Source of the DNA: Desulfovibrio gilichinskyi
GTDB taxonomy: Bacteria; Desulfobacterota; Desulfovibrionia; Desulfovibrionales; Desulfovibrionaceae
Assembly (NCBI RefSeq): GCF_900177375.1
Contig: NZ_FWZU01000005.1
Location: forward strand, 186,001-250,000
Reading direction: 5' to 3'
DNA: 64,000 bases
The notes under the pieces: model-generated
Databases searched by the model: none
What the model saw: the letters and a program-made list of their open reading frames with translations, nothing else
Told to the model about the DNA's origin: nothing
In this document: piece by piece, positions 14,005-40,266 of the stretch
How the letters are laid out: each line of letters opens with the position of its first letter
Position numbering within the stretch: position 1 is the first letter of the stretch
Translations under genes and position numbers: made by a program

Positions 14005-14070
14005 TGTGGGTGAGTAATAAAGATGGAAACTGAGTATTAAAGTTGGAAACCAAGTAATAAAGTTGGAAAC
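14005..14070 (+). repeat. Tn7 right end with three abutting TnsB-type repeats
   Basis: After the terminal TGTGGG come three head-to-tail 20-bp repeats (14011-14030, 14031-14050, 14051-14070), each of the form NNAGTAWTAAAGWTGGAAAC. Tn7 right ends carry overlapping or abutting TnsB sites, left ends carry spaced ones; this arrangement therefore identifies the right end. The repeats also sit where the tnsA promoter should be, which would allow TnsB autoregulation as in Tn7 (inference). Confidence 0.88.
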
Positions 14071-14071
14071 T

Positions 14072-14121
14072 AAAGCCGTTCGTGATACGCTCTATAAAAG
14101 AGTAATCAGGAGCGGCTTTTT
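14072..14121 (+). promoter_or_regulatory. Hairpin in the tnsA leader, terminator-like
   Basis: AAAGCCG (14072-14078) can pair with CGGCTTT (14113-14119), with inner TGAT/ATCA and CTC/GAG pairs, and the stem is followed by T residues and then the tnsA ATG at 14123. The tnsA ribosome binding site (AGGAG) lies in its 3' arm. The fossil copy at 40302-40349 has a different but perfectly paired stem at the same place, so pairing rather than sequence is kept. It could limit read-through from glmS into tns or mask the tnsA start (inference). Confidence 0.6.
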
Positions 14122-14122
14122 T

Positions 14123-14941
14123 ATGGCAAAAATTAAGAGTGAAAAAATTGAATTGAAGTTTCAAAGATGGATCAAAGAGGGACGTGGTACCGGACATGGC
14201 CATGAATATATTCCGTGGATCAAGGTTAGGGATATTTCATCGCGAGGAAGGTCTCATAGAATTTATGGATTTAAATCTCAACGAACGCACCATCTTCTTT
14301 CAGATCTGGAATTAGCCATTTTCTTGTCTCTTGAATGGGGGGAGCACACGGTTGATATCAGGGAGCAGTTTCCATTAAGAAGGGAGGAAACTCTTGAGCT
14401 TGCTGCCGAAGCACGAATAGACCACCCCTCCTTTTGTGGAACCCCTCATTACATGACTTCTGATTTTCTTGTGAATACAAAAAGGGATTCGCTACCGAAG
14501 TTTGTCATACAGGCAAAATATACCAAGGATTTTTCTGATCCAAGAACAGTTGAAAAACTTGAATTAGAAAGACGGTATTGGGTTACAAAGCAAATCCCTT
14601 GGTTTCTTATTACTGAGTTGGAGATCTCTCAGGCTGTTTTTAGCAATATTGAATGGTTGTATCCATCGCAAGGTGACGAAATATCTGCTAAAACGTTGGT
14701 CAAACAGGCTGAAAATTACGCTTATTGTTTTGAACAGGAACCAGATTCAAAGATTATTGACATAACAAAGTCGTTGGATGTCGCATACCAATTACCGAAA
14801 GGAGAGTCTTTATTGGAATTGCGACAACTGTTAGCAAAAAGATTTTTTGTTTTTGATATATCGAAGTCATACCTGAAGCTAAGAGCAAATGAGTTAGAAA
14901 TGGCAGATTTCGATATGTTGCTGGAGGCTGTAAATGTTTAG
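14123..14941 (+). CDS. tnsA: Tn7 transposase subunit TnsA (endonuclease)
   Basis: Restriction-endonuclease-like subunit that cuts the 5' strands at transposon ends, working with TnsB. 272 residues from ATG 14123 (start MAKIKSEKIE, as in Tn7 MAKANSS); an in-frame ATG at 14063 would begin inside the TnsB repeats and is rejected. Catalytic residues fall at E63 (SDLELAIFLSLEWG), D114 (MTSDFLVN) and K132 (FVIQAKY), the same numbers as recalled for Tn7 TnsA. The motif RIKEGRG-like WIKEGRGTGHGHEYIPW is conserved. Overlaps tnsB by 8 bp. Confidence 0.96.
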   Translation: MAKIKSEKIELKFQRWIKEGRGTGHGHEYIPWIKVRDISSRGRSHRIYGFKSQRTHHLLSDLELAIFLSLEWGEHTVDIREQFPLRREETLELAAEARIDHPSFCGTPHYMTSDFLVNTKRDSLPKFVIQAKYTKDFSDPRTVEKLELERRYWVTKQIPWFLITELEISQAVFSNIEWLYPSQGDEISAKTLVKQAENYAYCFEQEPDSKIIDITKSLDVAYQLPKGESLLELRQLLAKRFFVFDISKSYLKLRANELEMADFDMLLEAVNV

Positions 14942-17024
14942 AGTCAATGAGGTCCTCAATTATGGAGGCTTGAAATATAGGGTCTTAGCTCTTGCTGGCG
15001 ATCAAGTTGTCTGGATTTGTATTGATAAAACTTCTGGCATGCCCTCCGCTGTGTACTTGAATGATTTATCAAACTCAATCGAGCAAGGCATGTTGTCCCG
15101 CTCTGAAGATCCTTATGAAGAGTTGGCGTATATTGTTCCAGAGCTAGAGAGTTCCTCATACAATAAGCGTGATAAAAATTATGAACTAATAAAGCCTATT
15201 GTTGTTCATCCTCAGTTTTTTGAGCCTAAGATAAGAGCCGCTTTGATAAAAGGGGTTGTTGCTGAAAATGGAACTATAAAAAAGACCTTGTACAATTTGT
15301 TGCGTCGTTATTGGCAGCGTGGACAAACTCCCAATGCCCTCCTTCCAGATTATAAAAAATCAGGGGCCAAGGGCAAAAAGCGTAAGGCTGTAGGCAAAAA
15401 ACTAGGTAGACCACGGAAGTATACTCCGGGTGTTGGTGTCGGAGTGGATAAACAGGTTGAGCGACTCTTCAGGATAGCTATTGATAGATATCTTTTGAAA
15501 GATAATGGTCTTAGTTTTCCCTATGCGCATAGAAGATTCATGGAGCTTTATAAAAATTATTTCCCTGACACTCCTGAGTCTGAAATTCCGACAAAGTGGC
15601 AGATGCTCCATTTTTATAAACGTGAGTATGGGCAGGTTGAGAAGCTGAAGAAAAGAACCTGTCTCATCGAGTACAATAAGGATAAACGTCCACTAATAGG
15701 AACGGCTAATAGCAACGTGCTCGGTCCGGGGTCTCGTTTTGAAATTGATGCTACAATTGCAGATATATATCTCGTCTCTGACAGCGATAGAGGAAATATT
15801 GTCGGACGCCCAGTGATCTATATGGTGATTGACGTTTTCAGCAGGATGGTTGCAGGGTTTTATGTTGGGTTTGAATCCCCTTCTTATGCGGCTGCGATGC
15901 AAGCTCTTGCTTCTGCCATGACTGATAAAGTTGAATGGTGCAAGCTGTATGGATTAGATATTACCTATGATGATTGGCCTATTGTGGGATTACCTAACGC
16001 AATTCTTGCTGATCGCGGCGAGTTGCTTGGACATCAGATCGAAGCCTTGGAGAGTAGCTTTGGGGTACGGATTGAGAATGCTCCTCCTTATCGAGGCGAT
16101 GCAAAAGGGATTGTTGAACGTAGTTTCCGAACCATACAGTCCGATTTTAAACCTTTTGCTCCTGGTGTTGTAGGGAAGACATTGATCAAGAAACGCGGAG
16201 GAAAGGACTACCGCCTTGAAGCATCTCTTTCTGTCAGTGAATTTAAAAAAATCATCCTTAATTCGGTCTGGTATCACAATAATTTTCATGTTCTTGAAAA
16301 GTATGATCGTAATATTGATATGCCCGTGGATTTAGATATGACCCCATTGTCACTTTGGAACTGGGGAATCCAGCATAGAACCGGACGATTGCGAGCTGCT
16401 TCTGAGGATGCTCTTAGGATAAGTTTGTTGCCCAGAACTAAAGCTACTATTTCTGATTTAGGAATTTCTGTTTTTGGTGTATATTATACATCTCCAGAAA
16501 TAGTTGAAAGTGGGTGGATGCACCGCTCAAAGGACATCCGTAGACCTGTAGGATTGTATGCTGCATATGATCCTGCTTCAGCGGACTGCATCTATCTTTT
16601 TCCTTTCAAAGGGAAGAATGATTACTGGGTCTGTAAGCTGACTACTCGCTCAAGAGAATTTCAAGAGTGTTCTTTTTGGGATGTATGGCAGGTCAAAAAT
16701 GAGCAAAAGCAAGCTGTAGCAGAGAGTAAACTGAAGGCATCGGCGCAAAAAAGGCAGCTTGAAAGTTTAGTAGCTCAAACAATTAAAGAAGCAGGGCGTA
16801 ACGCGCCAGATAAAAGTCATATGAGTAATGCCGCACGCTTACGTGGAATCCAAAGCAATAAGGCTCAAGAAAAAGATAAAGAAAGGGGTATTCAGTTTTA
16901 TAAACCTAAAACGGAGTCGAAAGATATTCCTGCAAAAGTAATTTTATTAGAGGGGAATCGGCAGGAAGAAGATTACAGTTATCCTGATTATATCGATGAA
17001 CTTTTTGATACTGAGGATAGTTAA
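14934..17024 (+). CDS. tnsB: Tn7 transposase subunit TnsB (DDE)
   Basis: DDE integrase-fold transposase that binds the end repeats, cleaves the 3' strands and joins them to target. 696 residues. The triad is D272 (RFEIDATIADIY), D360 (NAILADRGELLG) and E395 (KGIVERSFRTIQ), within one residue of Tn7 TnsB positions as I recall them (273/361/396). An N-terminal DNA-binding region precedes the core, and a beta-barrel and a charged C-terminal tail follow; in Tn7 the tail contacts TnsC. GGAGG precedes the ATG within tnsA. Confidence 0.96.
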   Translation: MFRVNEVLNYGGLKYRVLALAGDQVVWICIDKTSGMPSAVYLNDLSNSIEQGMLSRSEDPYEELAYIVPELESSSYNKRDKNYELIKPIVVHPQFFEPKIRAALIKGVVAENGTIKKTLYNLLRRYWQRGQTPNALLPDYKKSGAKGKKRKAVGKKLGRPRKYTPGVGVGVDKQVERLFRIAIDRYLLKDNGLSFPYAHRRFMELYKNYFPDTPESEIPTKWQMLHFYKREYGQVEKLKKRTCLIEYNKDKRPLIGTANSNVLGPGSRFEIDATIADIYLVSDSDRGNIVGRPVIYMVIDVFSRMVAGFYVGFESPSYAAAMQALASAMTDKVEWCKLYGLDITYDDWPIVGLPNAILADRGELLGHQIEALESSFGVRIENAPPYRGDAKGIVERSFRTIQSDFKPFAPGVVGKTLIKKRGGKDYRLEASLSVSEFKKIILNSVWYHNNFHVLEKYDRNIDMPVDLDMTPLSLWNWGIQHRTGRLRAASEDALRISLLPRTKATISDLGISVFGVYYTSPEIVESGWMHRSKDIRRPVGLYAAYDPASADCIYLFPFKGKNDYWVCKLTTRSREFQECSFWDVWQVKNEQKQAVAESKLKASAQKRQLESLVAQTIKEAGRNAPDKSHMSNAARLRGIQSNKAQEKDKERGIQFYKPKTESKDIPAKVILLEGNRQEEDYSYPDYIDELFDTEDS

Positions 17025-18695
17025 ATGGCACTCCCGGAAAATATGATTAAAGCAGTTTATATCGAGTCAGTTATTCCTAGCTATGTGGGTAATCCTTATA
17101 TTGAAGCGTTGCCTCCTGAAATGACCTTTGAACAGGTTAAGGCAGGACTGATTGGCAAAGTTAAGTTTGATGCTCAAGATATTTTTGTTGATGGTCGTCT
17201 ACGCGCCCATATGATCCCTGCGCTACTCGATGATTTTTTCCAACCTTTATCCGCACATATCAGTCTTGAGCAAAAGCTATCCATAATGATTAGACGTGGG
17301 TACGTTGGTAGGAATCTTAGTGACGGCTCCCGCAACAAGCACATGCAAAATGGTTATGAGAGGATTCTGAGTGGTGATATGGAATCTTTTAGATTCAATC
17401 ATGCCATTTCAACTGCCTCCAGCCTTTTGCTATTAGGGTGTTCTGGAAGTGGAAAAACCACAACTCTCCAGCGCATTCTATCCACATATCCAACAGTAAT
17501 TTTTCATGAAAAATATAATTTAACTCAAGTAGTATACTTGAAAATAGACTGTCCACATGATGGTAGTCTTAAAAGTTTGTGCATTCATTTCTTTCGAGCT
17601 TTAGATAAGGTATTACATACAGATTATGAGACAAAATATGTAAAGAAAAGACATAGTATTGAGACATTGCTCAGCCTTATGTCACATGTGGCCAACCAGT
17701 TTTCGTTGGGTGTTCTGGTAATTGATGAAATTCAGCATCTTAGCATAGGGAGGTCTGGCGGTGTAGACATGATGCTTAATTTCTTCGTTACATTGGTCAA
17801 TACAATTGGTCTGCCTGTAATTTTAGTTGGAACTCCCAAGGCTAGACCCATTTTTGAGAATGATTTGCGCTCGGCTCGGAGGAGCTCAGGTTTTGGGGCC
17901 TTACTTTGGGAGCCTATGGAAAATCCAACGCCTACGATTGATCCTCAGACAGGAGTGCCTTCCAAGACTGCATGGAGAGCATTTACTGATGTTCTATGGA
18001 AGTACCAGTGGTTGCAGAAACGAGATGAGGTGCTAAGTGATGAGGTGCGAGAGTGCTGGTATGACTTGTCTCAGGGCGTTCTCGATATTGTAGTTAAGCT
18101 GTTTGTTCTGGCGCAACTCAGGGCAATTTCCACGAGAACAGAACGGATAACACCTAAACTCTTAGAAAAGGTTTACGAAGAGGAATTCAAGCCTGTTCAC
18201 CCTATGCTGGCGGCTCTTCGGTCTAAAGATCCAGAAAGAATTGCACAATACTCGGACCTGACGTTACCCGGAATAGATAAAAAAATGCTTGAGCTCTCTT
18301 CAGCAATAGCTGACGTGGCAAATAGAGATGATTCCCCCCATGTCATTTATGAAGGGAATGAACAGGCAGAAAGGTTGCATACTCTACTTATCGGCATGGG
18401 GTGTGAGGCTTCACGGGTAATTCCCCTTGTGAAAAAGGTCTTTGTTCAGTCGCCAGAGCTCTCTGTGCGTGAGTTAGTGCCAACTGTTTTGGATTGGTAC
18501 GAATCGGGTAATTATGAACCTGAAAAGGCAAAGCATAAAAGAGCAACGTCTGTTCCTAAGAAAGATTGGAATACATTGGATTCAAGTGACTTACGTTTTA
18601 CTTTTTCACAAGTCGACGGAGATGGCATGTATACGCAGTTGAAAAATGAGTCCCTTATTTTTGATGTGGATTCTTGGCTGCAAGAGGTGATTTAA
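17025..18695 (+). CDS. tnsC: Tn7 AAA+ regulator TnsC
   Basis: ATP-dependent matchmaker joining the TnsAB transposase to TnsD- or TnsE-marked targets and providing target immunity. 556 residues, almost identical in length to Tn7 TnsC. Walker A GCSGSGKTT at about 138-146 and Walker B VLVIDEIQHL with D234/E235. The ATG directly follows the tnsB stop with GAGGA upstream, implying translational coupling. Confidence 0.95.
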   Translation: MALPENMIKAVYIESVIPSYVGNPYIEALPPEMTFEQVKAGLIGKVKFDAQDIFVDGRLRAHMIPALLDDFFQPLSAHISLEQKLSIMIRRGYVGRNLSDGSRNKHMQNGYERILSGDMESFRFNHAISTASSLLLLGCSGSGKTTTLQRILSTYPTVIFHEKYNLTQVVYLKIDCPHDGSLKSLCIHFFRALDKVLHTDYETKYVKKRHSIETLLSLMSHVANQFSLGVLVIDEIQHLSIGRSGGVDMMLNFFVTLVNTIGLPVILVGTPKARPIFENDLRSARRSSGFGALLWEPMENPTPTIDPQTGVPSKTAWRAFTDVLWKYQWLQKRDEVLSDEVRECWYDLSQGVLDIVVKLFVLAQLRAISTRTERITPKLLEKVYEEEFKPVHPMLAALRSKDPERIAQYSDLTLPGIDKKMLELSSAIADVANRDDSPHVIYEGNEQAERLHTLLIGMGCEASRVIPLVKKVFVQSPELSVRELVPTVLDWYESGNYEPEKAKHKRATSVPKKDWNTLDSSDLRFTFSQVDGDGMYTQLKNESLIFDVDSWLQEVI

Positions 18696-18697
18696 TC

Positions 18698-20206
18698 ATG
18701 CTCAATTTCCCCGTGCCATACCCTGATGAGCTAATATACAGCACTGTGGCGCGGGCAGGTGTGCATATGGGGTTAACCAGTCCCAAACAGTTGCTTGATG
18801 AAGTCTTTGCCAACCGCAAGGTTATTGCTACACCGGATCTGCCGTGTCACCTTGGAAGGATTTCAGGCTTGTATCCTGAATCGCTGAAGCTTGATGTTAA
18901 AAATATCATATACAAGCACACCCTTTTCCCTCTCTACGCTCCTTTTGTTCCTGAAGAAAGGAGAATTCAGTGTTTAAAATGGATGGCTGGACAGTCTAAA
19001 GGAGCGGTTCACCTAGCGCTTGGAGTGGCCGCCTCTCGTATAAAGCAAATACGTTTTTTGAGATATTGTCCTAAATGTCTTGAGACGCAACTGGACCATT
19101 ATGGCGAATATTACTGGAAACGTGGTTGGCAGGTAACTGGCGCAGATGTGTGCCAGCACCATGCCAGATTGAAAAAGTCTCATGTTGAATTGCACAGCCG
19201 ACATCGCCACCAATTTTTTGATCTCGCTCCCCATAAACATGATGACCTTTTTTTTATACCCAGTAGTACAGAAGAATTCCGTGTAGCGATACGTATTGAT
19301 GAGCTTTTGAATCTCCCCCCAATCAAATCACCATCTTTTGAGCAATGGGGAGCCTACTACAAATCCTTGGCTGAAGATGCGGGCTGCACAAAAGGAAAGA
19401 ATGTCTTGCATGATATTATTTTTGAGAAAGTTATATCAAATTGGTCTGCAGGATGGCTTAAAAAACACGGCCTATTCCCAATAGATTCTAATTCGTGTTG
19501 GTTGAAATCAATTTTTAGAAAACATCGAAAATCTTTTAGCTACTTGGAACATATAGTTACCTTAGGGACTCTCCTAGGTGACAGATGGAATTTTAGATCT
19601 GTTTTCAAGGAAGCCTTGAGTTTAACTCCAAAGAATATTGTCACGTGCCCTGTGGATTTTTCAGCTCATACTCCTTGTCAAGAGACACTCGACATACGCA
19701 AATCATGGGAAGTTTTTCTTAAAGAGTTTGGGGTGAAGAAGGCCCGTTCTTCAGGTGGAGCAGCTATATATGCTTGGTTGTACCGGAATGATCGGGCTTG
19801 GTTGATGAAAATAAACGGTCAGCATCGTAGGTCTTCGCGATCGAAAAACAAACGTGTTGATTGGACAAAGCGGGATCAGAATGTTTTGAAGAAGCTGGAA
19901 GATATTCATCAAAGTTCTTTGGAGGACTTCGAAGGGCCAAGGCGTTCTAGAAATTGGTATTTGAATCAACTTGGAGCTAAGGCTACTATTGAAACGAATC
20001 TCAGTAAGCTTCCATTGGCAGTAAACTTTTTTGAAAAAAATTGTGAAGACATTCCTAGTTACCAAATTCGAAGATTAGCTCTTACTATTCGAAAGTTAAA
20101 CTCTGCGAAGGAATCGTTGCAGAGATGGAAAATATTAAGGTTGGCTGGCCTGAGTGATGAGCGGATTTGTGCTGAAGCAGAATTGTATTTGAAGCATATG
20201 AGATAG
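18698..20206 (+). CDS. tnsD: Tn7 target selector TnsD (TniQ family)
   Basis: Sequence-specific DNA-binding protein that recognises the 3' end of glmS and recruits TnsC. The start is ATG 18698 (MLNFPVPYPDELIYS, as in Tn7 MRNFPVPY), with AGAGGTGA upstream; an in-frame extension to 18674 lies inside tnsC and is rejected. 502 residues versus 508 in Tn7. The CCCH zinc motif is at C124, C127, C152, H155, same register as Tn7. The position of the element 23 bp after glmS is direct evidence that this pathway was used. Confidence 0.95.
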   Translation: MLNFPVPYPDELIYSTVARAGVHMGLTSPKQLLDEVFANRKVIATPDLPCHLGRISGLYPESLKLDVKNIIYKHTLFPLYAPFVPEERRIQCLKWMAGQSKGAVHLALGVAASRIKQIRFLRYCPKCLETQLDHYGEYYWKRGWQVTGADVCQHHARLKKSHVELHSRHRHQFFDLAPHKHDDLFFIPSSTEEFRVAIRIDELLNLPPIKSPSFEQWGAYYKSLAEDAGCTKGKNVLHDIIFEKVISNWSAGWLKKHGLFPIDSNSCWLKSIFRKHRKSFSYLEHIVTLGTLLGDRWNFRSVFKEALSLTPKNIVTCPVDFSAHTPCQETLDIRKSWEVFLKEFGVKKARSSGGAAIYAWLYRNDRAWLMKINGQHRRSSRSKNKRVDWTKRDQNVLKKLEDIHQSSLEDFEGPRRSRNWYLNQLGAKATIETNLSKLPLAVNFFEKNCEDIPSYQIRRLALTIRKLNSAKESLQRWKILRLAGLSDERICAEAELYLKHMR

Positions 20207-20209: not shown

Positions 20210-21826
20210 GTGAGCAATTATATATTTGATAAGTTTAAGCCTGATGCCATCATTAACTATCTAGGATCTTTATGCAGAAGAATTAAAGGTTCTCGGTGGT
20301 GGATTAGTATCAGTTTTTCAGGTCAGAAAGGTAGCGATTCGGTAACTCTATCCAATGCATCCGCAATAGCTCGCAAAAGGGTTGTGAATCCAACATGTAT
20401 AGCGAAGGCTGCGGGGAGCCATATTAACTTAAGTATTATTTCAACTAAGGGCTGGTGCGTTAAGAAAATTAAAGATTGCCCGATTGAAGGATTTTCTTCG
20501 CGAAAAGATTGTGAACAATTTTGTTTTGTCCTTAAAACGAAAAATGGTTTGACTATCTACTTGCCGCAGCTTGAATTGGCTCGAGCTTTGTTTTTTCGTG
20601 ATTCATATCTTGCAAGAGCTGCAATGGAACCAGATACCTTAGATTTTGATTTTCAAATTGTTCGTGAGGGAAACTGCGAAGTTATACGTATTAATATTAT
20701 GCCAACTTCTTGTTATCCCCTTGAACTTTTTCGTGAATTAAGTAGTCGCAATTACTTAAGTTGGATATTGTTGGATGATCAAGCTCGTAAGTCTTATGAA
20801 AGTATTGGACGTAACCAAAAAACGTCGGGTTATCAGGTTGGAGATTATTGGAAATGGGACTTTCATTTTGATCCTCCAGAACTTCCAGATGCAAATTTAG
20901 GTCTGCGAGGATATCATGACAAAAAAACTAAATGCTTTTTTGTCTATGAAATTGAGAGCATAAAGAATATCAGCGCAAATATACCTGAGAAAATTGAGAT
21001 GTATCACCCTAATTTTAATACTCCAAGTGCCGAATCTACGCATGGTGGCACTTCGGTCGCTCCAAGTACTATTGATCAATATAATGTGCATGATGACGAA
21101 GTTGCAAATGCTGATGCGGCCCGGCGTCTGATAGACGGAGATAAAGTTGTTTTTGAATTTTCTAAACCCTTTGTAACTCTCAGAGTTTCGGAAAAAAAGA
21201 AGCCTATTACTTCACAAAAGCCACAGGAGGAAGGAGGCGATTCCCATCATCTTGACGTGAGCGCTGAAGAGTCTGTTGCCGGACAAGGTTTTCCGGGGGG
21301 AGAATGGGACACGACTAATGATCAAACGGAGAATGATCATTTGTTTGAAAGCAAATTCAGTTGCTTTTTAAATATGGTTGAAAATTTAGTAGATACTCAC
21401 GATTGTAAGATGCTCTCTAAGAATACTAGAAAATTACCCGCAGTTTCGCGTTGTAAAAAGCACCTGCTTTCAACAGACGGAAATCCTAGATGTATGGCTG
21501 TGGTAGTGATTGAGGTTAAAGGAAAAGTTTTTCATCTGTTGGAGGTTGATACATCCGATGCGGATAAGCCTCTGTCGACAAGAATTTTGATGGTAAGAAG
21601 CTATGCTACGTGGGAAAAGGATCTTGAACATCTTGAATATGAACTTGTGCGGACCTCTCTTACTTGGCCGGTACAGTTACTAACTCAATTTTGTGGTAAA
21701 AAAGGCCACTTGAGAATTTCACATCCTAAAACACCTTCAAATAACAAAGGGCTAATTCTCCCTGATTCTATAGAGGGATGGGCTAATAGAACTTATGATA
21801 GAATGGACGATATGTCTCAGATTTAA
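20210..21826 (+). CDS. tnsE: Tn7 target selector TnsE
   Basis: TnsE directs Tn7 to replicating conjugal plasmids and lagging-strand structures through the sliding clamp. 538 residues, the same length as I recall for Tn7 TnsE. Matches by eye include YLPQLELARALFFRDSYL and a C-terminal LLEVDTSDADKPLSTRIL block and WANRTYD. Start is GTG 20210, three bases after the tnsD stop. The middle (about 290-400) is acidic and diverged, as is usual. Its presence shows a full Tn7 rather than a Tn6022- or CRISPR-associated relative, and implies plasmid mobility of the island. Confidence 0.9.
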   Translation: MSNYIFDKFKPDAIINYLGSLCRRIKGSRWWISISFSGQKGSDSVTLSNASAIARKRVVNPTCIAKAAGSHINLSIISTKGWCVKKIKDCPIEGFSSRKDCEQFCFVLKTKNGLTIYLPQLELARALFFRDSYLARAAMEPDTLDFDFQIVREGNCEVIRINIMPTSCYPLELFRELSSRNYLSWILLDDQARKSYESIGRNQKTSGYQVGDYWKWDFHFDPPELPDANLGLRGYHDKKTKCFFVYEIESIKNISANIPEKIEMYHPNFNTPSAESTHGGTSVAPSTIDQYNVHDDEVANADAARRLIDGDKVVFEFSKPFVTLRVSEKKKPITSQKPQEEGGDSHHLDVSAEESVAGQGFPGGEWDTTNDQTENDHLFESKFSCFLNMVENLVDTHDCKMLSKNTRKLPAVSRCKKHLLSTDGNPRCMAVVVIEVKGKVFHLLEVDTSDADKPLSTRILMVRSYATWEKDLEHLEYELVRTSLTWPVQLLTQFCGKKGHLRISHPKTPSNNKGLILPDSIEGWANRTYDRMDDMSQI

Positions 21827-22090: not shown

Positions 22091-22777
22091 TTACAACTCA
22101 GCCCACCAAGTTTCTTCATCATCTAAAGGGACCGCAAGGGCCATCCAGTCTGTGTTTTGAAACTTGCCAACTTGGTGAATGTGAAAGTGACCGAAAAACC
22201 ATTGTGCGGGCTCATATTTTTGTAAAATAAGGTCAAGAATATCTCGTGTTGGATCATCGGCTTTAGCAAGCCATGGAACTTTGCTGTATCCTAGTGGTGG
22301 TGTGCGTCTGAGTACAAATGAACTCGGGCAAGTGTGGCTCACAACAATATCTATGTGTTGGTTCGGATCAAGTTTTTCAAAGTCATTTGCAGCCGGGATT
22401 TCATTTGAAAACCAACTCTTCCCTTCAATTTTAGACTCTTTGTCCGTAGAGTCTGCTCCTCCGAAGAAAAGCACATTCCGACCATCAGGCAGAGCTAATA
22501 TTGAGCCTCGCGGTTGATAGAAACAGTTTGGTGCAACTTCAAGTTGTCCGGATTCAGTTATGTTTGCCAGCTCCTCATGATCTTCATGATTACCTTCACA
22601 CCAGTATAGTTTTGTGTTGCCGAGCTTTAAAGGTGGATCTGCCGGCGGCCAACCATTTTGATGTGGCCAGTAGCCAAAATCTCCGCATTGGATAATTATG
22701 TCTGGCTGCTCAGTTGTAACCAGGTGGTTGATGACTTGAAAGTCTCCGTGGATGTCGCCTAGAATAATGGTTTTCAT
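22091..22777 (-). CDS. Calcineurin-like metallophosphoesterase
   Basis: 228 residues with the standard motif series: GDIHGDFQ (residues 8-15), CGDFGYW, WCEGNHEDHEE, VSHTCPS and GHFHIH. These supply the two-metal site of the family. Substrate not predictable; relatives include nucleotide phosphodiesterases and protein phosphatases. Read towards tnsE from inside the cargo; its start is near 22777 with an AT-rich upstream region. May be a cargo function unrelated to the glycan genes. Confidence 0.88.
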   Translation of the reverse strand: MKTIILGDIHGDFQVINHLVTTEQPDIIIQCGDFGYWPHQNGWPPADPPLKLGNTKLYWCEGNHEDHEELANITESGQLEVAPNCFYQPRGSILALPDGRNVLFFGGADSTDKESKIEGKSWFSNEIPAANDFEKLDPNQHIDIVVSHTCPSSFVLRRTPPLGYSKVPWLAKADDPTRDILDLILQKYEPAQWFFGHFHIHQVGKFQNTDWMALAVPLDDEETWWAEL

Positions 22778-28183: not shown

Positions 28184-28185
28184 CT

Positions 28186-32163: not shown

Positions 32164-33249
32164 CTAAATACATACTTTTCTAATTTTTGAGACAAAATCA
32201 TCGGTTTTAAACTTCTGGGCTCTTTTTTCACAGTCTCTTTTCATGCTTAGTGCTTTTGATGAGTCCAATGATATTACCGCATTAATGATTTCCACTGACT
32301 TTGGCTTAATAAGTAATCCAGTTTTTTTATCTAGAATGGTTTCAAGTATCCCGCCTTCCTGAGCTCCAATAGTCGGTTTTCCTGCAGCCATAGACTCAAC
32401 AGGACTAATTCCAAAATCTTCATCTTTAGGAAGATATATAGTCGCAATGGCTTTACCAATAAGATCTTTAAGTTTATCTTCATTGGTCCATCCGGTAAAG
32501 TTTATATTTGGGGCATTATTGGATAGCGTTTTTAAATTTTCTAATTCAGACCCACCAGATGTCACAACAAGCTTTTTGCTAGGCATTTTTTTGAATGCAT
32601 CGATAATCAGATCTACTCGTTTGTATTTTTCGAGTCTTGCTGTTGAGAGATAGTAGTCTTCTTGACCAAGCCATTTAAATTTTTTCACATCAACTGGAGG
32701 ATGGATAACGAGAGCATTAACTCCCAAATATCTTTGAATGCGGTTTCGAACATTTTGAGAATTGGCAATAATCAAATCCATTTTTTTGAATGCTGCTTCA
32801 TAGTTTTTTCTGGTATGATAAACTAGAGCTTTAAAAGCTGGCCTGAAAGCAACGTTTAAGTTCTCAAGATAGTATTCGTAGAGATCATAAGCAAAACGGG
32901 GTAGAGTATGGCAGTATAAAATTCGATAACCCTTTTTTTGATTGTGAACAGCTAACAATGCATATGAGCCACTGTAAATTACCATGTCATAGTTTTTTAA
33001 GAATTTGGTTTTTGATTTGAAATTATAAAATCCTTTTATAGCATTAAAAGGCTGGCAGGTGGAAGGTTTGCCCAGCTCTATGATGCTTGAAGGTAGACTA
33101 ATATCTGTAAAATTTTCCCGGTTGATAAAGTCAACGCATAACTCAGACTCTGGAAATGCTTCGTGTAAATTGAGGGATGTTTTTTCAGCCCCTCCCATGC
33201 AATAGAGGAAGTCATAAAGGATACATATTTTTTTATTTGAGTCAGGCAT
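32164..33249 (-). CDS. Glycosyltransferase family 4
   Basis: 361 residues, GT-B fold. N-terminal GGAEKTSLNL loop, C-terminal YYLSTARLEKYKRVDLIIDA, VVTSGGSELENL and the E-x7-E region DFGISPVESMAAGKPTIG. Such enzymes extend glycans using a nucleotide sugar. Convergent with the GT8 gene, 3 bp apart. No strong binding site seen before ATG 33249. Confidence 0.88.
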   Translation of the reverse strand: MPDSNKKICILYDFLYCMGGAEKTSLNLHEAFPESELCVDFINRENFTDISLPSSIIELGKPSTCQPFNAIKGFYNFKSKTKFLKNYDMVIYSGSYALLAVHNQKKGYRILYCHTLPRFAYDLYEYYLENLNVAFRPAFKALVYHTRKNYEAAFKKMDLIIANSQNVRNRIQRYLGVNALVIHPPVDVKKFKWLGQEDYYLSTARLEKYKRVDLIIDAFKKMPSKKLVVTSGGSELENLKTLSNNAPNINFTGWTNEDKLKDLIGKAIATIYLPKDEDFGISPVESMAAGKPTIGAQEGGILETILDKKTGLLIKPKSVEIINAVISLDSSKALSMKRDCEKRAQKFKTDDFVSKIRKVCI

Positions 33250-33671: not shown

Positions 33672-34793
33672 CTATTGCGATATGACATCCAAGTATATTT
33701 GCTCAATTGCTTGAGCAGAGCGTAGTATTGTAAATAGATTGTTAAATTTCAATTTTCCCGCTTGGCCATATTGAACTGCTTTTTGTGGTTGAGTTATAAT
33801 CTCCTTTATAGCTTCAGCTAAAGCTTCTGAGGAAGCTACCGGTACAATTGTTCCGGTGATACCATTCTGATTCACCCAACTTGTACCTGATCCATTAATA
33901 CTGGTGGTCACAAGTGGAACGCCATAGCGCATAGCTTCAAGAAGGACCATACCAAAAGCTTCACCACGATCAATGGAAGGTAGACAGAATACAGATGCCC
34001 GCTGTAGTAATACGAATAACTCTCTGTCAGAGATTTTCCCCGGTAGACTCACTCGATTTTCCAATCCTAATTTTTTAACTTCACGAGTAATTCTGGAATG
34101 TTCAGGGCCGTCTCCAGCTATAATGAACCTTGCTTCAGGCAGAAGGACTGCAGCGCGAACAAGATATTTAAACCCCTTGTAAAATGCGAATCGTCCTACA
34201 CTAAGAACTAATGGTGTTTCGTCTGGGGGAATTTGTCTTGGAGGATATTTATTCTGGTCAAGTCCCAACGGAACAATTCTGCATTTGTCCAACCATGGTC
34301 TTAATGAATGGCTTGATTCCAAATAGAGGGGAGATGTCGCTATTATACACTTGGCTTTAGAAAGGATGCGTTGCTCAAACTGACGATAAAAAGGATACAG
34401 TATTTTAATCACCAGGTTTGGAGATCCTTTTACATCGGCGTGCCAGTGGACAATATAAGGGATTTCGGAAGGGAAAAAACAGTTAAACAGAATTGCCGGA
34501 TTTGGCAGATGGATATGGATAATTTGCGGACGATGGAGTGAAACTATTTTCTGCAGAGACATTGGGAAAAAGGGAGAAATAGGAGCGAACGCAGTGTTGC
34601 AAATAGTACTGGATCGAGTAATTTTGACACCGTCAATTTGACGGGCATCCGTTTTTCTAAAAGGCAATGTGTGATGGCATAACACACTTACGGAGTGTCC
34701 CATCTTTACTTGTTCAGCCGTTAGATCCCGAACAAATGTTTCTATGCCACCTCTTTCAGGGTAGGAATACTTACTTATGTGAAGAATGCGCAT
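33672..34793 (-). CDS. Glycosyltransferase family 4
   Basis: 373 residues with a full GT4 layout: MRILHISKYSYPERGGIET at the start (acceptor domain), LVLSVGRFAFYKGFKYLVRA (donor domain), FIIAGDGPEHSRI, and EAFGMVLLEAMRYGVPLV with the E-x7-E pair. IHIHLPNP is a typical family motif. Probably a hexosyl- or mannosyltransferase. Separately oriented from the main run, suggesting piecemeal assembly of the locus. Confidence 0.9.
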   Translation of the reverse strand: MRILHISKYSYPERGGIETFVRDLTAEQVKMGHSVSVLCHHTLPFRKTDARQIDGVKITRSSTICNTAFAPISPFFPMSLQKIVSLHRPQIIHIHLPNPAILFNCFFPSEIPYIVHWHADVKGSPNLVIKILYPFYRQFEQRILSKAKCIIATSPLYLESSHSLRPWLDKCRIVPLGLDQNKYPPRQIPPDETPLVLSVGRFAFYKGFKYLVRAAVLLPEARFIIAGDGPEHSRITREVKKLGLENRVSLPGKISDRELFVLLQRASVFCLPSIDRGEAFGMVLLEAMRYGVPLVTTSINGSGTSWVNQNGITGTIVPVASSEALAEAIKEIITQPQKAVQYGQAGKLKFNNLFTILRSAQAIEQIYLDVISQ

Positions 34794-35043: not shown

Positions 35044-36069
35044 ATGAAGTATTTATTTTCATTAATTGTCTTGTTGGTAACACTCGCTGCAGTATCAGCC
35101 TTTGCCGAAACTAATGGACAGCAACAGGCGACTAGTGATGTTGCCCGCTCCAGTAGTCAGGCATTAAGTACAATGGTTCAAGGGCGAGTTGCTACAATTG
35201 CTGCTCCTAAACCTGCTGGGTTAAAAAGAGTTTCTCATAATAGTATTGATAATAATGGTAATATAGATATTTCCCTGAATGCGGAAGATTTGGGACTTGC
35301 CTCAGGTGAAGCTGCCAATGACTTTGGTGTTTGGGCTATGGGATCTTACACACAGTTTTCTAACACTGCGACAGGATCCAAATATGACGCTGAAACCTAT
35401 AATTTCCTTGCTGGGGCGGATTGGCGTGCAACTCCGGATTTATTAATAGGATTAGCCGGTGGTTACGGTGTGCTTGATCTTGATAAAAAAGACTGGTCAG
35501 GCGGAGCTGATACTGGAACACTCAAAACTGACTCAGAGTGGACAGTGATGCCTTATTTGGCCTACAATTTTACTGACTACACCATCTTAGATACAGCTTT
35601 TGCTTATACAAATTCCCGCTATAAAGACAACGATGGTACAAGTACTGGTAAATACGATTCCAATCGTTATTTGACGAACATAGGTGTTTCTCAATATTTT
35701 ATGCTTGATGAATGGACTCTCAGTGGTCGTCTTGGATATATGTATGTAAGTGGTGATTTAGGTTCTTATTCTCGTGGCGGAACTGACATTGCAAATCCAG
35801 ATAGTTATTTGAGTCAGATGAACGTTGAAGCAAAAGCAGCGTATCTTTTTGACAGATGGATTGAACCATACACTGCGATCCGCTACTATTATGACCTTGG
35901 AGTTTCAACTAGACCTGTAGACTCTGATTATGATGAGTTTGAGGGCGTTCTTGGTTTGAATCTGTATGCTAGTGATGTGTGGACAGTTGGTTTAGAGGGT
36001 GGAGCAAGTGCAGGACGTGCTAAGTACGAATCCTACCGAGGTCAAGCAACTGTCCGTTTTGAATTTTAA
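35044..36069 (+). CDS. Outer-membrane beta-barrel protein (autotransporter-barrel type)
   Basis: 341 residues. A signal peptide (about 1-21, ending AFA) is followed by a Gln/Ser-rich linker and, from about residue 90, a barrel domain with alternating aromatic strands and a C-terminal phenylalanine (ATVRFEF), the outer-membrane insertion signal. It looks like the translocator half of an autotransporter with hardly any passenger, so it is more likely a plain porin-like or receptor barrel. A strong terminator follows, so it is a single-gene unit at the start of the glycosylation cluster. Confidence 0.75.
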   Translation: MKYLFSLIVLLVTLAAVSAFAETNGQQQATSDVARSSSQALSTMVQGRVATIAAPKPAGLKRVSHNSIDNNGNIDISLNAEDLGLASGEAANDFGVWAMGSYTQFSNTATGSKYDAETYNFLAGADWRATPDLLIGLAGGYGVLDLDKKDWSGGADTGTLKTDSEWTVMPYLAYNFTDYTILDTAFAYTNSRYKDNDGTSTGKYDSNRYLTNIGVSQYFMLDEWTLSGRLGYMYVSGDLGSYSRGGTDIANPDSYLSQMNVEAKAAYLFDRWIEPYTAIRYYYDLGVSTRPVDSDYDEFEGVLGLNLYASDVWTVGLEGGASAGRAKYESYRGQATVRFEF

Positions 36070-36158: not shown

Positions 36159-36884
36159 GTGCAAAAATATAAAAATGTTGCTGTAATAATACCTGCTCTT
36201 AATGAAGCTTTGACTATCTCTAAAATTATCAGAAAAGTAGGCGGCTATGGGGTGGATACTTATGTTGTGGATGATAATAGCCAAGATGGAACTGTCGCTA
36301 AATCCCGCAATGCAGGGGCCGAAGTTTTAGTATTACCTTTTAGATCTGGATCTTGGGGTGCTACACAGGCCGGAATGCTACACTCCATAAAAAAAGATAA
36401 ATATGATTTTTTTATAACGATGGATGCTGACGGGCAACATGAACCTGATTATATTCCATTGTTGATTGAGCGATATTTGTCGAGTAAAGTAAACGTTGTT
36501 ATTGGGAGCTGTATACAACGTGGTAGCTTTGCAAGACGGATAACGTGGAGTGTTTTCTTTTTTCTAACCCGTTTAAAAATACATGATATGACTTCTGGTT
36601 TTAAACTGTATGATAAGAAAGCCGTTCAGGCTCTTTTATCTAAAGAAGCCGCAATGTTCGATTATCAAGATCTAGGTCCATTACTTTTGTTTAGAAGAAA
36701 GAATATTAAATGTATTGAAATTCCAATCTCCATGTGTGCTAGAAAAAATGGATGTTCTCGCATTTTTGATTCTTGGCTATCAGTGTCAATCTATTTAGTT
36801 AAAACTTGTATATGGGTGATCGTTGATTGGATTTCCAAATCAGACAATTCGTTAGGTAAACTGGATGATTATGACTCTATTTGA
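36159..36884 (+). CDS. Glycosyltransferase family 2, dolichol-phosphate-mannose-synthase-like
   Basis: 241 residues from GTG 36159 with AAGGAGG just upstream. The N-terminus VAVIIPALNEALTISKIIRK, VDDNSQDGT, and the metal motif MDADGQHEPDYIPLL are those of the polyprenyl-phosphate sugar synthase branch. MTSGFKLYDK is also conserved. No C-terminal membrane segments clear enough to call. It would load a sugar on undecaprenyl phosphate; the oligosaccharyltransferase three genes downstream could use such a product (inference). Confidence 0.88.
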   Translation: MQKYKNVAVIIPALNEALTISKIIRKVGGYGVDTYVVDDNSQDGTVAKSRNAGAEVLVLPFRSGSWGATQAGMLHSIKKDKYDFFITMDADGQHEPDYIPLLIERYLSSKVNVVIGSCIQRGSFARRITWSVFFFLTRLKIHDMTSGFKLYDKKAVQALLSKEAAMFDYQDLGPLLLFRRKNIKCIEIPISMCARKNGCSRIFDSWLSVSIYLVKTCIWVIVDWISKSDNSLGKLDDYDSI

Positions 36885-37257
36885 TCTTGTTGCTCCCGCG
36901 ATTTCTTTCTTAAGTGTTGTAATAATTCTCGTGCTTATTAGGCGGCAGCGCTTAGGAATATTTCATTCTCTTTGGTGGTTATTTGCTGTTTTTAGTATGC
37001 TTTTTATTGGTTTTTTCCCTACCGTGGTAGATAGAATCGGATGGTTTTTAGGAGTGCATTATCCTCCCGTATTACCAATTCTTTTGGCTCTTTGTTTTTT
37101 ATTTGTTAAAGTACTGACTATGGATATCGAACGGACTCAGCAGGAAATTAAAATTCGGATTATTGCTCAAAAAATGGCAGCTTATGAAGCAGAGTTATAC
37201 AGTTTAAAAGCTGAACAATCTGTTGAAAAGGCAGAAATAAAGATCCATGAAAACTGA
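36865..37257 (+). CDS. DUF2304-type membrane protein
   Basis: 130 residues, overlapping the GT2 gene by 20 bp (an ATG at 36871 is also possible). Three hydrophobic segments (about 8-24, 35-52, 68-85), then a charged coiled-coil-like tail. Layout and position match DUF2304 proteins, which are regularly encoded beside polyprenyl-phosphate GT2 enzymes and may anchor them at the membrane. Function otherwise unknown. Confidence 0.75.
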   Translation: MIMTLFDLVAPAISFLSVVIILVLIRRQRLGIFHSLWWLFAVFSMLFIGFFPTVVDRIGWFLGVHYPPVLPILLALCFLFVKVLTMDIERTQQEIKIRIIAQKMAAYEAELYSLKAEQSVEKAEIKIHEN

Positions 37258-37309
37258 TATATTTATTTCATGGTGTTGCTTTAGTTAATACCTATTGTTT
37301 GGAGGAGGC

Positions 37310-38116
37310 ATGATCTTTCGAATTGGGTTGATTTTTTTTCTTTTTGTCTTCTCGGGATGTACTTCCTTTTCTCCTCGTTTATTTGCAGAGCAACATGGCT
37401 TCCTTGAACATATTTTTGTTGCAGATACTTTTGACATCGCAGGCTACATGCGTGGTAAATCCTCAATTCTTCGTGTCTATTTTGAGGGTGATGGTAAAGC
37501 ATGGTTGAATAGAAGACGCCCTTCTACTAATCCTACCCCCCAGAATCCTGTTTCTTTTTATTTAGCGGCAGTCGATACTAACCCGGCGGTGTTATACCTT
37601 GCGCGTCCTTGCCAGTTTGTTGAGGGGCCGCATTTAAGAAGTTGTTCTACACCTTTTTGGACATCAGCACGGTTTTCCGAACCTGTAATACACGATTTAA
37701 ATCAAGCTTTGGATCAGGCTAAATCATTAGTTGGGGCAAAAATCCTTGAGCTGGTTGGGTATTCTGGAGGTGGAGCGGTTGCCTTGCTACTCGCCGCACG
37801 AAGGGATGATGTTGATTTGGTTGTGACAATTGCAGGCAACTTGGACCATGATTACTGGACTCGCTATCATCACGTCTCGCCATTACGCGATTCGTTGAAT
37901 CCTGCTGATTATGCTGTTCAAAACCAAGTCATCAAGCAAGTACATATTGTAAGTACTGAGGACTTAATTATACCTCCTTCTGTCAGTCAGAGTTATCTAA
38001 GTAAAATGAACGAGACTAGTATGGTTCGAATTGTTACGGTGCACGGGGTAAAGCACATGGACGATTGGAGTCAAGTTGTCCCGAGTATTTTAAAAAAGGT
38101 TGATCAACACAAATAG
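37310..38116 (+). CDS. Lipoprotein alpha/beta-hydrolase
   Basis: 268 residues from ATG 37310, directly after GGAGGAGG (the 5-residue extension to 37295 is rejected). Signal peptide with lipobox FSGC, so the mature Cys would be near residue 17. Hydrolase fold features: nucleophile elbow GYSGGG, an acid in STEDLIIPPS and the terminal His in GVKHMDDW. RPCQFVEGPHL is seen in a family of secreted lipase-like lipoproteins. May deacylate or de-esterify a lipid or glycan outside the inner membrane (inference). Sits between DUF2304 and the oligosaccharyltransferase. Confidence 0.75.
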   Translation: MIFRIGLIFFLFVFSGCTSFSPRLFAEQHGFLEHIFVADTFDIAGYMRGKSSILRVYFEGDGKAWLNRRRPSTNPTPQNPVSFYLAAVDTNPAVLYLARPCQFVEGPHLRSCSTPFWTSARFSEPVIHDLNQALDQAKSLVGAKILELVGYSGGGAVALLLAARRDDVDLVVTIAGNLDHDYWTRYHHVSPLRDSLNPADYAVQNQVIKQVHIVSTEDLIIPPSVSQSYLSKMNETSMVRIVTVHGVKHMDDWSQVVPSILKKVDQHK

Positions 38117-38122
38117 CGAGTT

Positions 38123-40072
38123 ATGAGAACTTTACGATTTACTACCACGACATGGGCAACTATCGCCGTCATAATAATTTCTGTAACTCTAAGCGGAATT
38201 CTAGCACTTCATCATTCGCAATTACTGGTAGAGCAGGGTATTCATATACAGGGGGTCCCGCTGATTGGAAATAATGATGGATATTATTATTTGGATCAGG
38301 CTTATAAGCTAGCTGAGCAGGGTGTTGGGGTTAATGATGTAATTAATGACAGTCATCAATCAATGCTTCTTTCTTATTTCCTTGCTGCAGTTGCTGGTCT
38401 TGATAAAATGCGATTACAAAGAGTTTCCGCATACCTTGGGCCTATTCTAAGCTTATCTATGTTATTAGCGGTGCTTCCATGGGGTATAAAAATTCGTTCT
38501 CCTTTTGTTATGGTTTCTTCAACTTTACTTGCTCTTTTCGCTCCATATTGGGTAACGCGTACCCATGTTGGTTTTCTTGATACTGATAGCTTAGTTCCAG
38601 GATTATGCTTCTTTGCCCTATTCTGTGTTTTCCAGTTTTCTACCAAAAAAGTTTCGCGATTGCCTTGGGTAGGTTTATATATATTGATACTTTTTTTTCT
38701 GTGGTTTTGGTGGCGACCAGGGGCGTTACTGTCTGCAGGATTTATTCTTTGCTATTTAGTTTATCCAACTCGGAATAGGCTTGATATTTCGCTAAAGGTT
38801 TTATTCCTGTGCGGGATTATTGCTGTTACAGGTTTGATGGTTGCTGGACTTGAACCCTTTTCACAATATGCGGCGTACATAAAAGATCATGCTTCTCTTG
38901 CCTTTGGCGGGACCACCAATTCTCTTTTAAGCTTATCGATTATTGAATTGAGAGGAGTATACCTGTGGCAGTTGGGGCAAAAATCTCTTGGAAGTGGTTG
39001 GCTGTTGATCCCTGCTATATATGGAACCATATGCTACTGCGTGCATTATCGTACGAAAGCTATTTTTCTGGCCGTTGCATGGGGGTTCGGGTTCGCATCG
39101 ATTATATCGCAACGGTTTATTCCTTTATTTATACCAGCAGTCGCTTTTTTTGCCGCATATGGCTGCATAATTCTTTGTTCATGGGTAAGTCGCCAAATTA
39201 CGTTGCGATTCATGCTGCAAACGAACAAGATTGAATATTTATTAAAAGTAGCATGCTTACCTCTTTTGTTTGGATGTGTAATTGTAAATACCGTCACATA
39301 TCAACCTAAAACATATTTTAGCCGAAATGATTTCGTGCTCGCTAAAAAAATTCGAGCCACATTCCCATCAAATACACTTCTATGGACTTGGTGGGACTAT
39401 GGGTATTTTTTTAAATACCTTACAGGAATGGATGTTTTCTTTGACGGCGGATCGCAGACAGAATTAACTTGTTTCACAGCAGCTTACCCGCTAGTTCAGA
39501 ATGATATGGCTGTAGCAGCTAGTTGGATAAAATACTTTGCGTTTTCATCTCCAGATCAGCTCAATACAAATAAAAAAGAACAATGGCTTGCGTTTTTAAC
39601 TGCATTTACTAAAAAAATTATGAGCACGGCTGAAACCTCTGAACGCTCAGTAGCATTATGTTTGCCTGCAAGGGTTTATACCACTAGCGGCTATTTATAC
39701 TCATTTGCTCATGTTTTTGAGTATAAAATGCCACCAATTGTTAACCATTTGGATTTGTACTCAAAGAAAGGATTTAGATATGAACCTCGCTCCAGCTCCG
39801 TGGTTGTTCCTGAAGAAATGGTTAGCAATGGATACGATAGCTTTGGTGGGGTTCTGGATGCAACGAACAAGCTCCCTAAGCAGTTAGATTTAGACACAGT
39901 TCCTGATCCATATCTTGTGTTTTCAGATAACTCTAATTTTTTGGCGGTTACGGATCGTGCTTTGGTTGAGTCTGTACTGTTTCGTCTTCTAGGATTGTTT
40001 GATGGTGATATAAGATATTTTTCACCTATTTTCTTTGATTATCGATTTGGTGGAATTTGGAGTGTACATTAA
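38123..40072 (+). CDS. STT3/PglB-family oligosaccharyltransferase
   Basis: 649 residues: about 12-13 hydrophobic segments to residue 405, then a periplasmic C-terminal domain. Catalytic features in register with Campylobacter PglB: acidic residue D52 in GNNDGYYYL, D153/D155 in GFLDTDSL, and the acceptor-sequon motif WWDYG at 423-427. Such enzymes transfer lipid-linked glycans to asparagine in the periplasm; a Desulfovibrio PglB homologue is known to be active. Starts 6 bp after the hydrolase stop, so one operon with GT2, DUF2304 and the hydrolase. Last cargo gene before the Tn7 left end. Confidence 0.88.
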   Translation: MRTLRFTTTTWATIAVIIISVTLSGILALHHSQLLVEQGIHIQGVPLIGNNDGYYYLDQAYKLAEQGVGVNDVINDSHQSMLLSYFLAAVAGLDKMRLQRVSAYLGPILSLSMLLAVLPWGIKIRSPFVMVSSTLLALFAPYWVTRTHVGFLDTDSLVPGLCFFALFCVFQFSTKKVSRLPWVGLYILILFFLWFWWRPGALLSAGFILCYLVYPTRNRLDISLKVLFLCGIIAVTGLMVAGLEPFSQYAAYIKDHASLAFGGTTNSLLSLSIIELRGVYLWQLGQKSLGSGWLLIPAIYGTICYCVHYRTKAIFLAVAWGFGFASIISQRFIPLFIPAVAFFAAYGCIILCSWVSRQITLRFMLQTNKIEYLLKVACLPLLFGCVIVNTVTYQPKTYFSRNDFVLAKKIRATFPSNTLLWTWWDYGYFFKYLTGMDVFFDGGSQTELTCFTAAYPLVQNDMAVAASWIKYFAFSSPDQLNTNKKEQWLAFLTAFTKKIMSTAETSERSVALCLPARVYTTSGYLYSFAHVFEYKMPPIVNHLDLYSKKGFRYEPRSSSVVVPEEMVSNGYDSFGGVLDATNKLPKQLDLDTVPDPYLVFSDNSNFLAVTDRALVESVLFRLLGLFDGDIRYFSPIFFDYRFGGIWSVH

Positions 40073-40119
40073 GAAAGGTTGAATTTATCTTTATATAGTT
40101 CGTTTCAATCATAGTTTTA

Positions 40120-40266
40120 GTTTCCAACTTTATTACTCAGGATTTATTCTTCAAAAGTTAGAATTATAATTTAGTTTCCAACTTTATTTTTAAAAATAAA
40201 AAATCGGTTCATGTAAAATCAAGTAGTTATAAAAAAATTAGTTCCCAACTTTATTACTCACCCACA
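40120..40266 (-). repeat. Tn7 left end with three spaced TnsB-type repeats
   Basis: Three copies of GTTTCCAACTTTATTACTCA or close variants lie at 40120-40139, 40174-40193 and 40241-40260, all inverted relative to those in the right end, and the last runs into the terminal CCCACA at 40266. Wide spacing is typical of Tn7 left ends, unlike the abutting sites on the right. Confidence 0.88.

Follow-up and report, generated by a model that had tools for sequence, protein, structure and literature searches.

Tn7 has the gene order tnsABCDE, TGT...ACA ends and a 5-bp target duplication, inserts just behind glmS with its tnsA end towards that gene, and carries an integron with resistance genes as its cargo. 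Parks and Peters are said to have described in 2007 how Tn7 forms genomic islands. Here we analysed G000:C5:186001-250000 of the 3.96-Mb genome of Desulfovibrio gilichinskyi, a 64-kb stretch hereafter called the window, in which a Tn7 behind glmS carries genes for glycan synthesis and protein glycosylation instead; the genomes and loci compared with it are labelled Gnnn and Lnnn. Tn6171 of Acinetobacter baumannii is a Tn7-family element located 25 bp after glmS with the fimsbactin pathway as its cargo, which is a precedent for a whole pathway carried at this site (PMC8190619). Tn6171 resembles the window element in being large, in having a 5-bp duplication, in carrying a whole biosynthetic pathway and in having a relative away from glmS, whereas its cargo is a siderophore pathway and not a glycan pathway. 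In Acinetobacter variabilis, a Tn7 remnant adjoins a capsule locus, with no glycan cargo inside the Tn7. A survey of 6,549 Tn7-like elements (Benler et al. 2021, PMC8649781) describes diverse cargo, with restriction-modification as the commonest defence type, and gives insertion sequences (ISs) as a proposed route of cargo capture; the terms glycosyl, polysaccharide, capsul and cell wall did not occur in a word search of its main text. Literature searches, chiefly of non-subscription sources, returned no paper on a Tn7 with glycan or oligosaccharyltransferase (OST) cargo or on Tn7 in Desulfovibrio. The transposon described here is an ordinary canonical Tn7, and its combination of cargo is new as far as searched.

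We conclude with high confidence that the window contains a complete, probably transposition-competent, canonical glmS-targeting Tn7, that its cargo consists of two blocks joined at an IS3-type relic, and that it occupies a stacked site. An earlier note on this DNA had proposed an intact Tn7 at 14005-40266 with both termini, an ATGGG duplication and five ordered tns genes; all of these were confirmed when the boundaries were read from the sequence. The copies of ATGGG on the two sides are perfect. The sequence TGTGGGTGAGTAATAAAG begins at 14005 directly after the first copy, and CTTTATTACTCACCCACA is the distal end reading up to 40266, where the second copy follows. The tnsA end is proximal, and 23 bp separate the end of the glmS stop codon from the Tn7 tip. 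Pattern matching gave TGT...ACA tips and repeated putative TnsB-type boxes at both ends. With up to 3 mismatches allowed, boxes lie at 14013, 14033 and 14053 on the tnsA side and at 40119, 40173 and 40240 on the other, and the only other boxes in the window are at 40283, in an adjoining relic, and at 61517. Closely packed boxes on the tnsA side and spaced ones opposite are the pattern of the right end (R-end) and the left end (L-end) of Tn7, respectively. The triple box with 20-bp spacing was also found at the R-ends in G011 and G014.

The five tns genes are full length. Alignment with the solved Tn7 proteins placed the residues that we take to be catalytic (E/D/K of TnsA and D/D/E of TnsB) in register, as the earlier note had claimed, and TnsC carries Walker A and B motifs. 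In Pfam, TnsB reached 19.9 bits with the Mu-transposase C family, slightly below the cut-off of 21.7. The order of tnsA, tnsB and tnsC is shared with the Escherichia coli Tn7 on plasmid R721, as are TnsB-type boxes and the presence of a hairpin ahead of tnsA; the R721 element has four boxes at the tnsA end where the window element has three, and the two TnsB proteins are 48% identical. By analogy with the Tn7 family, TnsB would bind the end boxes, TnsA and TnsB would excise and paste the element, and TnsD together with TnsC would direct insertion downstream of glmS; TnsE would direct it to replicating, chiefly conjugating, DNA, and plasmid targeting by TnsE is likewise an expectation from the family. 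A chance match was rejected on the grounds of the matched ends, the duplication and the five full tns genes. Identity as a CRISPR-associated transposon was also rejected, as no Cas family was found among the 22 element open reading frames (ORFs) scanned with Pfam; arrays were not searched for. The coordinates of the features are listed in Table 1.

Table 1. Features of the Tn7 element and its surroundings in the window
Feature	Position	Strand	Basis or remark
glmS	12158..13981	+	attTn7 target sequence at 3' end; Pfam SIS and GATase
Target duplication ATGGG, glmS side	14000..14004	.	sequence
Tn7 R-end, TGTGGGTGAG tip and three TnsB-type boxes, 20-bp spacing	14005..14071	+	
Leader hairpin (AAAGCCG...CGGCTTT) around likely tnsA ribosome-binding site	14072..14121	+	fold z -5.1
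tnsA	14123..14941	+	ATG start, ORF opens at 14063; Pfam TnsA N/C; PDB TnsA, E 1e-76
tnsB, DDE transposase	14934..17024	+	PDB Tn7 TnsB, E 2e-223
tnsC, AAA+ ATPase	17025..18695	+	Pfam TniB/Tn7_TnsC_Int; PDB Tn7 TnsC, E 2e-170
tnsD (TniQ and TnsD), glmS-site selector	18698..20206	+	Pfam; PDB Tn7 TnsD, E 7e-83
tnsE	20210..21826	+	Pfam TnsE_C, E 1e-43; PDB TnsE C-terminal domain, E 5e-26
Metallophosphoesterase, first cargo gene	22091..22777	-	Pfam Metallophos
IS3-family-like transposase relic, border of core and glycan cargo	23396..23677	+	
Cargo protein, 365 amino acids (aa)	24152..25249	+	no match in Pfam or NCBIfam
GT4-type glycosyltransferase	25251..26732	+	Pfam
Methyltransferase	26750..27517	+	Pfam
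TylF/Methyltransf_24 family methyltransferase	27524..28183	+	Pfam
Wzm-like ABC-2 permease	28180..28950	+	Pfam; NCBIfam galactan Wzm, 23 bits (cut-off 380)
Wzt-like ATPase	28947..29648	+	Pfam; NCBIfam teichoic-acid/galactan export ATPases, below cut-offs
Capsule-synthesis-like protein	29667..30839	+	Pfam Capsule_synth
GT8 glycosyltransferase	31132..32160	+	Pfam
GT4 glycosyltransferase	32164..33249	-	Pfam
OST module: GT4 glycosyltransferase	33672..34793	-	Pfam; adjoins module also in G013, G014 and L137
OST module: outer-membrane beta-barrel (autotransporter beta-domain family)	35044..36069	+	Pfam
OST module: GT2, probably of polyprenyl-phosphate sugar synthase type	36159..36884	+	Pfam Glycos_transf_2
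OST module: DUF2304 membrane protein	36865..37257	+	Pfam
OST module: alpha/beta-hydrolase-like lipoprotein	37295..38116	+	conserved in G013 and G014; no Pfam family
OST module: PglB/STT3-like oligosaccharyltransferase	38123..40072	+	Pfam STT3-PglB core; WWDYG motif
Tn7 L-end, three spaced TnsB-type boxes, terminating CACCCACA	40119..40266	-	
Target duplication ATGGG, distal side	40267..40271	.	sequence
Relic R-end and tnsA fragment, older Tn7	40275..40544	+	83% over 265 bp to 14052-14313
RND efflux block	42877..53503	.	RND assigned by Pfam, its partners by eye; 88.9% identical in G009

The cargo is made up of an ABC-exporter glycan cluster and a six-gene PglB-like OST module, and the Pfam calls agree with the polysaccharide synthesis and export and OST functions claimed in the earlier note. 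The transposition core and the phosphoesterase gene are separated from the glycan cargo by an IS relic, which we take to belong to the IS3 family on the basis of its peptide WDNA..ENFFSKLK. This relic matches another at 40545-40668 in two pieces of 85%, and an 84% copy is present on contig C7. A homologue of the phosphoesterase (77%) is located in an island of G014, 39 kb from glmS, and an 83% fragment is present in a G009 relic. In the first block, which runs from the 365-aa protein to the GT4 at 32164..33249, an ABC-2 permease and an ATPase lie side by side within the glycan gene cluster, as expected for Wzm/Wzt export, and, judged from the protein families, the block would make a glycan and export it by this route; that both proteins fall under the NCBIfam equivalog cut-offs speaks against the assignment.

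The product of the last gene of the second block contains WWDYG, which we take to be the oligosaccharyltransferase motif. Its best structural and sequence matches are with PglB of Campylobacter jejuni (6gxc/5ogl/3rce), which likewise has a membrane part, a soluble domain and WWDYG, whereas the identity in the structural alignment is about 15% and the surrounding gene set is different. The sequence matches to PglB structures in PDB are weak (E 1e-4 and 3e-3), and PglB is the top Foldseek match of the predicted model (E 4e-14). The low confidence of that model (mean predicted local distance difference test score, 58) and a score of 42 bits against a curated PglB equivalog cut-off of 1300 count against an identification with PglB, and by this score the protein is a divergent relative of PglB, not PglB itself. 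From their families, GT2 and the DUF2304 protein would form a lipid-linked sugar that GT4 extends, and its transfer in the periplasm would fall to the PglB-like enzyme, with the beta-barrel of the module itself as a possible target. N-X-S/T sites in the barrel number one in the window and in G013 and three in G014, and the barrel may tentatively be regarded as the acceptor, a role against which its single site in the window tells. The neighbouring product of 37295..38116 is presumably alpha/beta-hydrolase-like and a lipoprotein, given its GYSGGG motif and its lipobox SGC. In addition, a 257-bp intergenic stretch of the window (33379-33635) is 92% identical in G013 and lies there on the opposite side of the GT4 gene, a difference that is a local reshuffle inside the module.

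The picture of a single intact Tn7 given in the earlier note was correct as far as it went and incomplete, since it missed both the IS3-like relic between the core and the glycan cargo and a decayed Tn7 end abutting the element. The relic R-end starts 3 bp past the distal ATGGG and has boxes of the type GTTGTATACT where the intact element has GTTGGAAACT, and its tnsA fragment is broken off at 40544 by the IS3-like relic that starts at 40545. Beyond the latter are an aldo/keto reductase gene, an AIR-carboxylase-like gene and then the RND efflux block, which is probably cargo of the older stratum. Because a second Tn7 end abuts the element, insertions are stacked at glmS. The intact element would have inserted against an older Tn7 relic of different box sequence and would be the youngest insertion next to glmS. 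Target immunity has been described (PMC11406308), and the differing box types may have permitted a new insertion beside the old element despite it; literature searches on stacked Tn7 and target immunity turned up no paper.

A comparable stack was observed in G009, where C4:197731-257000 (L035, L103 and L104) contains at least five successive, mostly decayed Tn7 strata behind a single glmS; their cargo includes defence, efflux, OST and restriction-type genes. In the following, G009 positions are those on C4 minus 197730. The first stratum is a tnsABCDE element with its R-tip at 1029 and its L-end extending to 17656. The second consists of an R-relic at 17662, the efflux block at 17727-28357 and an L-tip near 28440. 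The third contains an R-tip, a tnsA relic, a phosphoesterase fragment, an OST fragment and a complete three-box L-end (29805-29951), and is a decayed relative of the window element. The next stratum has a GTATAC-type R-end, fragments of tnsA and tnsE and ORFs like the type I restriction-modification (R-M) set of G014, and closes with an L-end at 45822-45969; tnsABC relics and a second OST fragment are outermost. The efflux block is proximal and OST distal in G009, and the opposite order in the window implies at least one relocation or a separate insertion. The aldo/keto reductase and AIR-carboxylase-like genes found no match in the G009 stretch; the strata are therefore not fully collinear, which tells against a simple correspondence of the two stacks.

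A match to glmS was present in 40 of 40 relatives. The stretch downstream of glmS was compared in 18 of them (16 of the same genus and 2 of other genera), with a length of 20 kb in 15 cases and of 5.0, 19.1 and 5.6 kb in L036, L044 and L052, respectively. All five tns genes were matched at glmS in four, all among the 16 of the same genus (G009, G010, G011 and G014), with TnsB 68-76% and TnsE 44-52% identical to those of the window, and tns fragments were found in two others (G008 and G015). The remaining 12 gave no tns match. The earlier note had pointed to a search for empty sites and other cargos; unoccupied sites are represented by these 12 stretches and other cargos by the sister elements, and since end or leader relics persist in several of the 12 (G005, G006, G012 and G013), not all of them are pristine empty sites. 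Of 17 genus genomes, 5 contain TnsE; in a family sample it was present in 4 of 99 genomes, of which 5 are genus members and only the window's own genome among these is positive. The G014 proximal element is flanked by its own duplication, GTTTG. Irregularities were also found in the sister elements: tnsD of G010 and tnsA of G011 matched in two frames, the flanks of the G011 element agree in 4 of 5 bases only, and the G009 proximal element, with two box types at its ends and no duplication, looks hybrid in sequence. Directly behind the glmS-type elements of G010 (L120) and G014 (L119), there is a second, distant Tn7-like set with TnsB of 38-39% identity.

The cargo of the window was found in none of the 18 stretches, with or without Tn7 ends, so that the result named in the earlier note as a refutation (the same cargo here without such ends) was not seen. 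The efflux pump, in G009, was the sole match with an identity of at least 30%, and below 30% there were six ATPase matches to wzt and one to RND. The contrast with the usual Tn7 cargo drawn in the earlier note holds, as 7 of 10 picked cargo proteins of the proximal elements of G009, G010 and G014 clearly match defence models, the other three giving no or a marginal match. Defence cargo at glmS comprises a type II methyltransferase and a NucC-like nuclease in G009, SspB and SspC in G010, and type I R-M and PrrC in G014.

The OST was searched for in 17 genus genomes, and some match was found in 16. Besides the window, full-length close homologues occur only in G013 (79%) and G014 (51%); G009 has fragments, and the rest are remote. 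In G013:C3 the module is syntenic (75-90% from barrel to OST, 71% for GT4) and directly followed by a three-box L-end at 279926-280072, whereas the upstream glycan genes differ and comprise GT4s, another Wzm/Wzt pair (27 and 40%), a sulfotransferase and radical SAM proteins. In G014:C6, about 614 kb from glmS, it is again syntenic (51-72%), and a remote Wzm/Wzt pair (23 and 41%) lies at a distance of 13 kb. The six module genes are also together, rearranged and at 30-45% identity, in a Desulfovibrio metagenome-assembled genome (L137), and L138 has three of them. The barrel is 90, 72 and 43% identical in G013, G014 and L137, respectively. This long-kept company of the module genes, barrel included, suggests a joint function. 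In a search of 99 family genomes with the permease, the closest Wzm/Wzt homologues of the window (permease, 70%; ATPase, 72%) were found at G002:C14:66.5-71.4 kb (L083), where they adjoin a different OST, GT2 and DUF2304 (23, 44 and 34%). An ABC exporter near an OST set thus recurs, also outside Tn7, and the two halves of the window's cargo occur jointly only here.

The OST module or its remains lie beside Tn7 ends at three places, namely in the window, in the G009 relic and in G013:C3. The module has thus been a neighbour of Tn7 ends more than once, and its movement with them is supported. Several findings weigh on the other side. In G013, neither TnsB nor TnsE was found, nor was an R-end in 198-306 kb (108 kb), and the copy may therefore belong to another island, one with a tyrosine recombinase, that carried it or in which it was left behind. 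Neither tns genes nor Tn7 ends were found in 60 kb around the G014 module, which indicates that the module is not confined to Tn7; no Tn7 end was found in 36 kb at the G002 exporter locus, and no other Tn7 was seen to contain the first cargo block. The copy of Tn6171 away from glmS differs from the G013 case in that its tnsD is broken (PMC8190619). Counted in favour of the preferred reading is the absence from G007 of a stretch of about 26 kb in G013 (roughly 255-281 kb), tyrosine recombinase included. At the edge of this OST island (G013:C3:255142-260312), the tyrosine recombinase is followed by ORFs of 601, 591 and 162 aa, a set that in our view resembles the Tn554-type recombinase set, and a single Tn7-like L-tip lies at 260611.

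It is very improbable that the cargo is a resident surface-polysaccharide locus beside which a Tn7 landed, or from which it took up cargo by recombination, so that cargo and mobility are unrelated. The G014 copy far from any Tn7 feature, the rearranged module in the Desulfovibrio metagenome-assembled genome and the border IS relic, which suggests later capture, are consistent with such a history. On the other hand, all of the cargo is enclosed by matched ends and a perfect duplication, it is missing from the glmS stretches of the relatives, and the OST gene abuts the Tn7 L-end in G013 and G009 as it does in the window. A fixed resident locus at glmS was rejected because the cargo is missing from those 18 stretches. 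The preferred reading, a Tn7 that carries both blocks, is compatible with a genuine but static element, whose core and cargo were already at glmS when the lineage parted from G009 and have passed down vertically; it would then be an ordinary genomic island that has ceased to move glycotypes. We regard this history as less likely than not. Over 761 bp, the G009 relic and window 39507-40266 share 89.0% identity, about like glmS (91.3%) and the flanks (84-89%), and the G013 module (79.6%) is near the divergence of glmS (81.4%). The OST copies are no closer than the chromosomes, so that no recent transfer is visible. A near-identical OST was absent from the genomes, plasmids and contigs searched, although near relatives may have been left out of the plasmid and named-genome scans. 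The five full tns genes, both full ends and the perfect duplication, however, argue against great age, the stack order differs between G009 and the window, and the G013 copy sits on another contig.

The suggestion in the earlier note that whole glycotypes move between strains therefore stands in part: the module lies beside Tn7 ends at the three places named, while the glycan genes next to it are different ones in G013 and have been lost in G009. That Tn7 elements of the genus trade a self-contained glycosylation cassette including its own barrel acceptor, with the partner glycan genes swapped, seems rather unlikely to us; if it were true, the transposon would carry sugar and carrier protein together as a portable, exchangeable outer-membrane glycoprotein. 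Plasmids gave a single remote OST match (25%), and a scan of named genomes gave 46 loci, none above 30% over a long stretch, with short segments of up to 50%. A mobilizable Shewanella plasmid (NZ_CP143083, L133) carries a Tn7 with a TnsB of 61% identity and its tnsA-E genes beside transfer genes.

Surface glycans are common phage receptors, and the cargo might form an anti-phage or surface-variation island in which glycans and a glycosylated barrel hide such receptors, as restriction would act in the sister elements. This proposal by analogy, compatible with the preferred reading of a cargo-bearing Tn7, is somewhat unlikely; the defence-type genes of the sister elements at glmS agree with it. 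If the cargo works as its families suggest, a site-specific, low-cost transposon could equip a neutral position in the chromosome with a new surface sugar together with a route for protein glycosylation, all in a single step. This would help to explain how surface traits that affect interactions with phages, predators and biofilms change between close relatives. The stacked relics behind glmS form a natural time series of the efflux, glycan and restriction cargos of the lineage.

A conserved hairpin with a T-run at its end was found just 5' of the tnsA ATG, with a GGAG ribosome-binding site inside it. The leaders of the window element and 16 other elements or relics were collected, and 16 of the 17 were aligned. 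In these, 96.6% of cells were paired, a value reached by 0 of 500 shuffles; the structure was derived from the same leaders on which the pairing was scored. Transcripts of glmS terminate inside Tn7 according to old E. coli work, and the hairpin may block read-through from glmS and mask the tnsA start. Arguments against a conserved function are that only 3 pairs changed on both sides, a number also reached in 23 of the 500 shuffles and in one slid control (although the other measures stood out), that the second, distant Tn7-like elements of G010 and G014 lack the hairpin, and that two of four plasmid-borne Tn7 relatives (Proteus and Acidithiobacillus) showed no clear hairpin. In the other two (R721 and Shewanella), a hairpin with a different sequence occupies the same place.

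Split tnsD genes were seen at two of the compared loci. In NZ_CP143083, tnsD is in two pieces with two cargo genes between them, and at G102:C1:2733587-2736344 (L091) about 1.2 kb separate the pieces.

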